The notes under the pieces: model-generated
Seen by the model: the letters and a program-made list of their open reading frames with translations, nothing else
Database searches by the model: none
Told to the model about the DNA's origin: nothing
Translations under genes and position numbers: made by a program
Shown here: one piece after another, positions 6,980-61,229 of the stretch
How positions within the stretch are numbered: the stretch's first letter is position 1
How the letters are laid out: every line of letters begins with the position of its first letter
Assembly (NCBI RefSeq): GCF_004342445.1
Contig: NZ_SLWW01000002.1
Span: 186,001-250,000 of the forward strand
Source of the DNA: Rhodovulum euryhalinum
GTDB taxonomy: Bacteria > Pseudomonadota > Alphaproteobacteria > Rhodobacterales > Rhodobacteraceae
Length of the DNA: 64,000 nt
Direction of reading: 5' to 3'

Positions 6980-8143
6980 TCAGTCCGGCAAAAGCTCGCG
7001 GATCACCGCGTTCAGAACGGCGCGACCCGCCGCAGTCGCGCGCAGGATGCCCGCGTGGTGCTCTAACAAGCCCAGTTGTTCCAGATCCGCGACTTTGCCG
7101 GGGTCGATCTGTTCCTGGCCCAGGCGTTCGTAGCGGGCGACGGACAGACCTTCGACCAGACGAAGCCCCATCAACAGGTATTCCGCTGCCTGTTCGCGCG
7201 GGTTTAGGACCGTGCGCGGCGTCTCGCCACGCCCGGTCTGTGCTACCTGCGCTAGCCAGCTTGAGGGGGAGAGGGGCGTTTCGGTCGCCCAGCGCTGGCC
7301 GCCCAGCGTCAGACGCCCATGGGCGCCCGGGCCGATCCCGGCATAGTCACCGTAGCGCCAGTAGATCATATTGTGTCGCGACTCGGCACCGGGGCGAGCG
7401 TGGTTGGACACCTCGTAGGCGGGCAGACCCGCCGCCGCGCAGATCTCCTGTGTCGCCGTGAAGAGATCCGCGGCGCGGTCGTCGTCCGGCAGGCCGCGCA
7501 GCAACCCCCGCGCATGGCGGTCGCCGAAGGCGGTGCCGGGCTCGATGGTCAGTTGGTAAAGCGACAGGTGATCGGCGGCCATCGCCAATGCCTCGCCAAG
7601 CTCGGCCTGCCAGTCTGCCGGGGTCTGGCCTTGCCGGGCATAGATCAGGTCGAAGCTGACACGCTCGAAGGTCGACCGCGCGACGTCGAACGCCGCGCGG
7701 GCCTCGGCGGTACTGTGCAGGCGTCCAAGGCGGCGAAGATCGGCGTCGTTCAGCGCCTGCACGCCAAGAGAGACGCGGGTCACGCCGGCGTCGCGATATC
7801 CCCTGAACCGGCCGGCCTCGACCGAGCCTGGATTGGCTTCCAGCGTCACTTCCATGTCGTTGGCGCAAGGCCAGGTCGCGCGGACGGTCTCAAGGATCGC
7901 CGCGACCAGATCCGGTGCCATCAGGCTGGGCGTGCCGCCGCCGAAAAAGACGGTGTTCACGGTGCGCGGGCCTGTTTCGGTGCCGATTCGGCGGATTTCC
8001 GAAAGATAGGCGCGCTGCCATGCCGCCATGTCGATGGTGGCCGCCACATGGCTGTTGAAGTCGCAATAGGGGCATTTCGACAGGCAGAACGGCCAGTGAA
8101 TGTAAAGCCCGAACCCGCCCGCCTGCCAGTCCTCAGCGGTCAA
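6980..8143 (-). CDS. hemW: HemW-type radical SAM heme chaperone
   Basis: Radical SAM protein of the coproporphyrinogen III oxidase-like family. In characterised HemW members the role is heme delivery to respiratory enzymes rather than coproporphyrinogen oxidation. The 387-residue product starts with the GLYIHWPFCLSKCPYC segment holding the CxxxCxxC cluster motif, followed by VFFGGGTPSLM. The start appears to be TTG 8143, overlapping the rdgB stop by about 11 bp; no ATG or GTG occurs before the conserved domain. HemN-specific N-terminal features were not seen, so HemW is favoured. It is the last gene of rph-rdgB-hemW and converges on parB with a 6-bp gap. Confidence 0.88.
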   Translation of the reverse strand: MTAEDWQAGGFGLYIHWPFCLSKCPYCDFNSHVAATIDMAAWQRAYLSEIRRIGTETGPRTVNTVFFGGGTPSLMAPDLVAAILETVRATWPCANDMEVTLEANPGSVEAGRFRGYRDAGVTRVSLGVQALNDADLRRLGRLHSTAEARAAFDVARSTFERVSFDLIYARQGQTPADWQAELGEALAMAADHLSLYQLTIEPGTAFGDRHARGLLRGLPDDDRAADLFTATQEICAAAGLPAYEVSNHARPGAESRHNMIYWRYGDYAGIGPGAHGRLTLGGQRWATETPLSPSSWLAQVAQTGRGETPRTVLNPREQAAEYLLMGLRLVEGLSVARYERLGQEQIDPGKVADLEQLGLLEHHAGILRATAAGRAVLNAVIRELLPD

Positions 8144-17106: not shown

Positions 17107-17768
17107 CTGCCTGCAAAGGGTGCCCGATCGCCCCAAAGCGCCCGAACCCGCGCATCGCGGCCGCAGGCCTGGCGGTAAAGCCTGTAGGCCTCGGCCCTGG
17201 TCTTGACGCCGAACCGGGTCACGACGCGATCGGTGCTCTTGTAATAGTCCTGATGATAGTCCTCGGCCGGATAGAACGCGGCCGCGGGCAGGATCGGCGT
17301 CACGATCCGTTGCCCCAACTCGGCCTCGGCGCGGTCCTTCGCTGCTTCGGCAGCCCGCTTTTGGGCCGGATCAGAGACGAAAACCGCGGTGCGATAGCTG
17401 TCTCCCCGGTCGCAGAACTGCCCGCCGGTGTCGGTCGGATCGACCGAGCGGAAGAACAGCGACAGAATCTGGTCATAGCCGATCACGCCGGCATCATAGG
17501 TGATCTGCACCGCCTCGTAATGGCCGGTGCCGCCGCGCGTCACCTGCTTGTAGGTCGGGTTCGCGACTGTGCCGCCGGTATAGCCCGAGACGACCTCGGC
17601 CACGCCCTTCACCTTCTCGAAATCGGCCTCGACGCACCAGAAGCAACCGCCCGCGACAACCGCGGTCTGCATGTCGGCGGCGCGCGCCTCGTTGCATTCG
17701 GCGGCGATGCCAAGCGCGATCGCGACCGCCAGTAGCATCGGTTTGATGTCCTTGAATGTAGCCAGCAT
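17103..17768 (-). CDS. msrA: Exported peptide-methionine (S)-S-oxide reductase MsrA
   Basis: Reduces the S epimer of methionine sulfoxide in proteins. The 221-residue product has the catalytic GCFWC motif at 41-45 (nucleophilic Cys42), [26 protein letters not shown], and EDYHQDYY. A Sec-type signal sequence precedes the domain ([16 protein letters not shown], then EARAADM), implying periplasmic action, unlike the typical cytosolic MsrA. ATG 17768 is preferred; ATG 17738 ([10 protein letters not shown]) is an alternative that still keeps the hydrophobic core. The cysteine at 25 is not in a good lipobox. No MsrB is adjacent. Confidence 0.93.
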
Positions 17769-59546: not shown

Positions 59547-59637
59547 GGCAGACTCCTCCCTGTCTGACGATGTCTGTCCCCCGAGATCCTCTTGCGGGAT
59601 CGTGATGACCGGAAGAATAGGCCGGGCCGCCCGCCGT

Positions 59638-60186
59638 TCAATCCTCGGCGGGGGCGGCCGGTGCGCGGGGCGGGATCGGGATCCACAGCCCCGTGACATG
59701 CACGTCCACCAGTTCGTCGCAGTGGAACAGCGTGTAGGTGAAGATCGTCTCGGGCTTGCGCATGATCCGCGGCCCCGAGGTCAGCAGGCCGGCCGGTTGC
59801 GGGCGCACGCCGGGCTGCATCCGCGGGCCATGGATCCGCTGGGCGGGCGAGACCACAACCTCGGCCAGGGGCAAGCCGGGACCGAAGGCGCCGGGCCGGA
59901 TCAGGATCGGCAATGCCTCGGGATGGCAGGCCAGAAACGCCTCGTCCAGAACGTAGCGGTCCAGCCAGACGATGCGCTTGAACGGTCCGCGGCGGGTACG
60001 GACCCGGTCTCCGACGCGCAGCGTCTGCGCCGGGAAGTCGCCGAAATCGGTCGTGATGCGGGTCATCGGGCCAAAGCCGGGCAGAGTCCATGCCGGGGGC
60101 TGACACCGCGTGCCGGACGCCTGTCCCGGCGCAGAGAGTGGGGCGGCGGGGCTGGACACGCCCCTGGTGGAATACGGGTCGGACAT
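59638..60186 (-). CDS. Degenerate Hint (Hedgehog/intein) domain protein
   Basis: The 182-residue product contains a Hint_2-like fold at about 43-155 (GDFPAQTLRVGDRVRTRRGPFKRIVWLDRYVL, PILIRPGAFGPGLPLAEVVVSPAQRIHG). The usual N-terminal catalytic cysteine is absent (residues around 41 read GPMTRITTD), and the expected Ser-Pro-x-His reads SPAQRIHG. It is therefore probably not self-splicing and may be a binding module. ATG 60186 and internal ATG 60066 are both possible starts. A long intergenic region with strong RNA-like structure lies immediately upstream. Many Rhodobacteraceae have standalone Hint proteins of unknown role. Confidence 0.7.
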   Translation of the reverse strand: MSDPYSTRGVSSPAAPLSAPGQASGTRCQPPAWTLPGFGPMTRITTDFGDFPAQTLRVGDRVRTRRGPFKRIVWLDRYVLDEAFLACHPEALPILIRPGAFGPGLPLAEVVVSPAQRIHGPRMQPGVRPQPAGLLTSGPRIMRKPETIFTYTLFHCDELVDVHVTGLWIPIPPRAPAAPAED

Positions 60187-60255
60187 CGTCTGCCTTCACG
60201 CCGTGGCTGCCGCAATGCTACGCGTCCGCCAATCGAGGGCGGTACCCGCACTGCG

Positions 60256-60521
60256 TTGGGGTGCACAGGACCGAACAAACCGAAGGCCCGTGCACCCCAA
60301 GCAACCACACCACTGGTTACAAGCCCCGAAGGGCCCCCACCCGGGACCGGACGATGCCGTCCCGCGGGTGAGTACGCTCTCGGAATAGGTCAACTCTCGG
60401 GTGGAGTCCTGCCGCTTTGTGGAGCTTTGGTGACGTGGCTTCCACAAGGCCGCGAAAGCCGTTTCGGGCCTGTCGTCGCAACGGCGACAGTTGGACCACG
60501 CAACCTGACGGAAAGTCAGGT
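60256..60521. ncRNA. Candidate structured RNA, strand and class unknown
   Basis: Between the Hint gene and smpB is a 566-bp stretch without a convincing gene. It holds a run of strong stems: TTGGGGTGCAC/GTGCACCCCAA (60256-60266, 60290-60300); AACCA/TGGTT (60303-60318); GCCC-CGAA-GGGC (60323-60334); a 10-bp stem with a 2-nt bulge (60338-60370). Next come a stem of up to 12 bp with one bulge (60414-60450), CGAAA/TTTCG (60453-60466), a 9-bp stem with CAA loop (60470-60490) and ACCTGAC-GGAAA-GTCAGGT (60503-60521). Hallmarks of RNase P, SRP, tmRNA and 6S RNA are absent. If read on the minus strand it would be the 5' leader of the Hint gene. Confidence 0.5.
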
Positions 60522-60737
60522 CGATGCCGGTGCCATCCCTGTTTTCGTTTCCCGATGATCAACAATGGATGATGGCAGTTTCGCCACCTTTCGGTCGTTC
60601 GCGAAGCGTGGACAAACCGTTTCCGGCGATTTTTCGACGTCTCTTCGGAAAATCCAAGGGGATTCCCTGCCGCACGGACCGCGACTCACCCCAACCACTG
60701 CGCCGCCTGACCGCTTCCCCCCCGCGCCGGTTTCGCC
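60522..60737. other. Intergenic stretch before smpB
   Basis: After the last strong stem of the candidate RNA, I see a T-rich segment at 60540-60550 (TGTTTTCGTTTC). It could mark the 3' end of a plus-strand RNA, with a short GATG/CATC stem just before it. From there to the smpB -10 element I see no gene, repeat or terminator. Confidence 0.5.
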
Positions 60738-60743
60738 TATATG
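60738..60743 (+). promoter_or_regulatory. Candidate -10 element of smpB
   Basis: TATATG at 60738-60743 lies ten bases before ATG 60753, with only a weak -35 (TTCCCC, 17 bp upstream). A start near 60750 would make the mRNA leaderless or nearly so. This also argues against the upstream ATG at 60741, which would lie inside the -10. Confidence 0.4.
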
Positions 60744-60752
60744 CGCTCCACC

Positions 60753-61229
60753 ATGGCAAAAGCGAAATCCGATCCCAACTACAAGGTGATCGCCGAAAAC
60801 CGGCGGGCGCGCTACGATTACGCGATCGAGGACGACCTCGAATGTGGGATCATGTTGCAGGGCTCCGAGGTCAAGTCGCTGCGCGAGAACGGCGCCAACA
60901 TCGCCGAAAGCTATGCCAGCGTCGAGAACGGCGAGTTGTGGCTGATCAACGGCTATATCCCGCCCTACGAGCAGGCCAAGACATGGGGCCACGAGGAACG
61001 GCGCCGCCGCAAGCTTCTGGTCAGCCGCAAGGAACTGGCCCGACTCTGGTCCGACACCCAGCGCAAGGGCTACACGCTGGTGCCGCTGGTTCTGTATTTC
61101 AACCACAAGGGCGTGGCCAAGCTGAAGATCGGCATCGCCAAGGGCAAGAAGACCCAGGACAAGCGCGCCACCGAGGCGCAGCGTGACTGGCAGCGCCAGA
61201 AACAACGCCTGTTGAAGGACCACGGCTGA
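60753..61229 (+). CDS. smpB: SsrA-binding protein SmpB
   Basis: tmRNA-binding protein essential for trans-translation. The 158-residue product has [65 protein letters not shown], and the lysine-rich C-terminal helix ([31 protein letters not shown]) that enters the ribosomal decoding centre. ATG 60753 gives the usual [17 protein letters not shown] start; ATG 60741 would add MRST. No ssrA tag sequence was found nearby. Confidence 0.97.

Follow-up and report, generated by a model that had tools for sequence, protein, structure and literature searches.

A candidate structured small RNA of the genus Rhodovulum, encoded next to smpB

Does the sequence upstream of smpB in Rhodovulum euryhalinum encode an RNA and, if so, how long is it, on which strand does it lie and what might it do? 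The question arises in the window, by which we mean the whole stretch of 64,000 nucleotides that was analysed, where a Hint-domain gene (59638–60186, minus strand; Pfam Hint_2, E = 1.4e-18) and the divergent smpB gene (60741–61229, plus strand; Pfam SmpB, E = 6.8e-55) flank a series of inverted repeats. The initial annotation took 60187–60560 for an undescribed structured RNA, either free or, on the minus strand, the leader of the Hint gene. The repeats lie where it had placed them (60256–60269/60287–60300, 14 nt, 93%; 60411–60423/60441–60453; 60470–60478/60482–60490; 60503–60509/60515–60521), and the hairpin at 60338–60370 is also seen in folds. Of its "at least eight" hairpins, four, all within 60254–60363, have comparative support, whereas for those at 60411–60521 the nearest relatives show only partial conservation. 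A 384-nt region folds better than its dinucleotide shuffles on both strands (z = −3.4 plus, z = −2.4 minus; 0 of 100 shuffles as good). The single-sequence z-scores of the cores described below range from −1.6 to −4.1, and that of the window copy does not favour the minus over the plus strand, so that folding energy alone cannot decide the strand.

The region matches no known RNA family, as the initial annotation had supposed. Rfam 15 at gathering thresholds gave no match in the whole window; permissive scans gave nothing beyond chance-level matches in 59900–60800 (E up to 10), and nothing beyond a tRNA and chance matches in seven homologous loci. The tmRNA is the partner of the SmpB protein, and the region likewise adjoins smpB, but ARAGORN detected neither tRNA nor tmRNA anywhere in the window, cmscan was equally negative for tmRNA in the region, and the alpha_tmRNA of the genome (RF01849, 304 bits) is on contig C9. 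RNase P RNA and 6S RNA, two structured RNAs that every genome of this kind should have, are absent from the region and encoded elsewhere: the sole genome match to RF00010 is on contig C12 (279.6 bits) and that to RF00013 on contig C7 (54 bits). Moreover, 6S RNA forms a long rod interrupted by a central bubble, whereas here there are several short hairpins.

A structured core on the minus strand

Loci retrieved by SmpB similarity identified the closest relatives as Rhodovulum species, and a DNA search of 101 genomes found the region at 71–79% identity in other members of this genus and elsewhere as short fragments only. The region upstream of smpB was inspected in all 16 Rhodovulum genomes, one per species (that of R. 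robiginosum, G010, included). Ten copies fall into two related types, type A in the window genome (G000), G005 (R. marinum), G006, G007, G008 (R. strictum) and G013, and type B in G001, G004 (R. visakhapatnamense), G014 (R. kholense) and G015. A covariance model built from these ten copies (R1) picked up two types that it had not seen, type C in G003, with four of its copies clustered beside or near smpB, and type D in G011 (R. adriaticum). The refined model (R2) finds 16 clear copies (at least 72 bits) of four divergent types in 12 of the 16 genomes, five of them in G003; R. robiginosum is among the species in which no copy was detected. In the window, the two models place the core at 60254–60393 on the minus strand, with its 5′ end at 60393 and its 3′ end at 60254 (R1, 134.5 bits; R2, 94.8 bits). 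Thus the new structured RNA of the initial annotation holds up by the lack of an Rfam match and by covariation, but its extent does not: the supported core has about 140 nt, not 374.

Covariation in the homologues is strong. In a first alignment made with MAFFT, in which structure was not used, the four helices give 276 standard pairs on the minus strand versus 248 on the plus strand. An alignment of all 16 copies (A3) leans towards the model, to which it was fitted. In A3, 92.4% of the cells are paired versus 80.9% in shuffles, a control that does not keep relatedness; 16 of 29 pairs are changed on both sides (9.3 in shuffles), cells with a change on both sides number 58 (17.7 in shuffles), and pairing drops to 37–50% when the partners are slid by 1–3 columns. 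The bulk of the covariation signal is in helices P2 and P5. Consensus folding of A3 yields −37.6 kcal/mol in the minus-strand sense versus −16.7 kcal/mol in the opposite sense, and 62 cells pair on the minus strand only versus 7 on the plus strand only. Since a G·U pair on the true strand is an A–C mismatch on the other, this asymmetry marks the strand of the RNA and argues against a palindrome that acts only as DNA; an RNA encoded by the plus strand of the core was rejected on this ground. The MAFFT pair counts, together with types C and D, which were found by a model built without them, are free of the bias of A3 towards its model. For the core, these comparisons show conserved structure and minus-strand identity.

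Read 5′ to 3′ on the minus strand, each of the four types has a C-rich stretch ahead of P2 (type A, CUCCACC; type B, UUCCCGAC; type C, UUCACCC; type D, UUCCCAC). P2 (60344–60363; 60363–60357 with 60350–60344) has five of seven pairs changed on both sides and 91% of its cells paired; the window copy carries one A–G mismatch. P3 (60321–60336; 60336–60331 with 60326–60321), which is closed by a UUCG loop, has three of six pairs so changed (88% paired), and P4 (60301–60320; 60320–60316 with 60305–60301), with the loop CAGUGGUGUG, is the weakest helix (two of five; 83.5%). The terminal hairpin P5 (60256–60300; 60300–60290 with 60266–60256) is strong, with six of 11 pairs changed on both sides and 99.4% paired. 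No spacers separate P3, P4 and P5. Coding frames are interrupted by stops in most copies and none is open across all of them, and the 16-copy alignment contains indels in the core; compensatory changes on one strand without a conserved coding frame are what a freestanding structured non-coding RNA would be predicted to display. A frame with a GTG start that runs through P4 and P5 into the Hint gene in G005, considered as a leader peptide and rejected, is absent in the window.

Because no U-tract follows P5 in the window sequence, and a consensus sigma-70 promoter was sought and not found, we infer both ends of the RNA. Two copies in G003 are 99% identical over 204 bp; this repeat starts in an A-rich stretch, 58 nt ahead of the model core, and stops just past P5. 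It points to a gene unit about 200 bp long, which would take in promoter or 5′ sequence and have P5 at its end. In the window, the region upstream of the core (60394–60530), which may hold the promoter and the 5′ part of the RNA, contains the further inverted repeats at 60411–60453, 60470–60490 and 60503–60521 and is partly conserved. In all six type A genomes the block GTCACCAA[A/C]GCTCC[A/G]CAAAG is invariant or near-invariant, and the block GTCACCAAAGCTCCACAAAG is nearly invariant. The palindrome at 60411–60453 (GCTTTGTGGA...TCCACAAAGC), with a third CAAAGC within its loop, may serve as an operator or as a switching hairpin, and the pair counts of 60394–60530 vary with the strand that is folded. 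A replication origin was considered and rejected, the GC-skew minimum of the contig being about 100 kb off and dnaA about 50 kb off. Two additional partial DnaA-domain matches were seen in G015 (C1:3831458–3832530), some 270 kb away from its full dnaA match.

Distribution and genomic context

Of the 12 carrier genomes, 11 have one or more copies upstream of smpB. In an SmpB gene tree, which has weak support in places, each of the two main branches includes carriers, and the four genomes without the RNA are dispersed. The best reading, with which this agrees, would be that the RNA is ancestral in Rhodovulum and was lost several times, although very divergent copies could have been missed.

The initial annotation had proposed to collect homologues from the Rhodobacteraceae; in the genomes and smpB loci searched they are restricted to Rhodovulum. 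Nothing convincing was found outside the genus with R1 and R2 in 80 smpB loci, with R2 in 41 relatives, or with both models in 397 genomes of the family, where the large scans scored the best 7–8 first-look candidates per genome under strict filters, so that divergent relatives could be missed. The outside matches reach at most 24.5 bits, are over the 397 genomes no more numerous than expected by chance and lie mostly in long open frames, which speaks against a family-wide RNA; matches beside smpB in Lutimaribacter overlap the end of the neighbouring gene. Within what was searched, the sequence comparisons show a distribution limited to the genus. A plasmid or phage RNA was also considered and rejected, no similar DNA having been found in phage and plasmid collections searched with types A and C. 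One weak R2 match (19.8 bits) in a locus of another genus (L184, genome G025) shares GUAC-GAGUGACAUU-GUUAC-CUUGGG with type B at its P4/P5 junction and is probably due to chance.

The surroundings of the RNA differ from species to species. In the window, 68 nt separate the end of the core from the start codon of Hint, which is on the same strand; the RNA likewise stands ahead of a Hint gene on the same strand in G005 and precedes a DUF4399 gene in G015. The five copies of G003 form two clusters of opposite orientation, 14–15 kb apart (L152:2638–3577 and 17252–17711): three stand in tandem, with smpB on one side and a tRNA-Gly gene on the other, while the remaining two, in reverse orientation, end against a convergent gene. 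A transposase-like frame (8405–10051 of L152) is situated between the two clusters. In R. adriaticum the single copy is away from smpB (L174, about 7398–7545), flanked by a DUF167/YggU-like gene and a convergent gene, which indicates that the locus was moved or rearranged. The contexts in G003 and R. adriaticum show by position that in at least two species the element stands on its own, and that a role as Hint leader is not general.

Possible functions

The favoured reading, to which we give somewhat better than even chances, is that of a freestanding Rhodovulum gene for a small non-coding RNA on the minus strand, divergent from smpB, which would regulate in trans by pairing with mRNAs. The RNA would be transcribed divergently from smpB from a promoter upstream of about 60400, and P5 would form or protect its 3′ end near 60254; exposed stretches, namely the C-rich segment before P2 and the loop of P4, would then pair with mRNAs. 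Antisense regulation in trans is ranked first because small intergenic RNAs of bacteria generally act in this way most often, and because every one of the four types has the C-rich stretch before P2. Against the favoured reading we count that P5 has no U-tract and that no sigma-70 consensus promoter turned up, the four of 16 species without the RNA, and possible co-transcription with Hint in the window.

Freestanding regulatory RNAs are found in the same bacterial family: in Rhodobacter sphaeroides these are StsR and the CcsR/cuckoo RNAs, the CcsR RNAs occurring in several tandem copies and the CcsR/cuckoo RNAs carrying the motif CUCCUCCC in a stem-loop. StsR and CcsR are likewise small and structured; the strand and structure of the Rhodovulum RNA are known from sequence comparison, and no relation in sequence or model to them is apparent; CUCCUCCC is absent from both strands of 60187–60560, the nearest match being at 59553–59560. 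According to two studies, the motifs HRC-8-4 and uORFC-8-2 (PMC8632094) and the SAM/SAH riboswitch (PMC2864571) are structured candidates recognised by covariation, limited to the order Rhodobacterales and found order-wide by cco operons, cysS or metK. The Rhodovulum RNA, in contrast to these, is confined to one genus and lies mostly upstream of smpB. Neither smpB nor Rhodovulum is mentioned in the main text of PMC11109978, PMC8632094 or PMC2864571, and in the literature on Rhodovulum small RNAs, which was searched mostly outside subscription papers, no description of this RNA was found. Its novelty should therefore be understood as "not found in the literature and databases searched" as opposed to "never reported".

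A serious rival, unlikely as it is, holds that the freestanding RNA binds a protein, as sponge or scaffold, instead of pairing with mRNAs. The compact stacking of P3, P4 and P5, the better conservation of structure than of sequence, and the presence of five copies in one genome, as for titrating RNAs, would suit this role. However, no known protein-binding RNA family matches, 6S RNA being encoded elsewhere, and no repeated protein-binding motif was identified.

That the RNA is a cis-acting 5′ leader, i.e., an attenuator or riboswitch of the downstream Hint or DUF4399 genes in which P5 would be the hairpin that switches, is distinctly improbable. The arrangements in the window, G005 and G015 speak for it, but a leader would be expected in a constant same-strand position upstream of one gene or function, and the downstream neighbour varies between types: it is Hint, DUF4399, a tRNA or a convergent gene. 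Indeed, there are other species in which the RNA is upstream neither of Hint nor of any co-directional coding gene: in G003 three tandem copies precede tRNA-Gly and two face a convergent gene, as does the copy in R. adriaticum. Thus, of the two options of the initial annotation, the free RNA is favoured, placed on the minus strand by the G·U asymmetry, and the Hint leader finds no support as a general role.

We consider it very improbable that the element acts as DNA, as operator palindromes or a recombination site. The repeats at 60411–60453 do resemble operator half-sites, but the G·U asymmetry (62:7) of the core at 60254–60363 is unexpected for a DNA palindrome. Even less credence can be given to an RNA that joins SmpB or the ribosome in an accessory role in trans-translation: its usual place upstream of smpB is accounted for by shared synteny alone, the R. 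adriaticum copy is not beside smpB, there is no tmRNA-like or tRNA-like match, and a normal alpha_tmRNA is present on another contig. Least probable of all would be a genus-specific second rescue-related RNA, encoded divergently from smpB and working with SmpB or the ribosome.

With a freestanding small RNA as the preferred reading, the wider importance is modest for now: one more small RNA in one genus. It is, nevertheless, a structured RNA family new to Rfam, whose compensatory changes are clear and whose strand is defined, and since some named Rhodovulum type strains carry the RNA and others are naturally without it, tests by expression, deletion and transfer would be simple.
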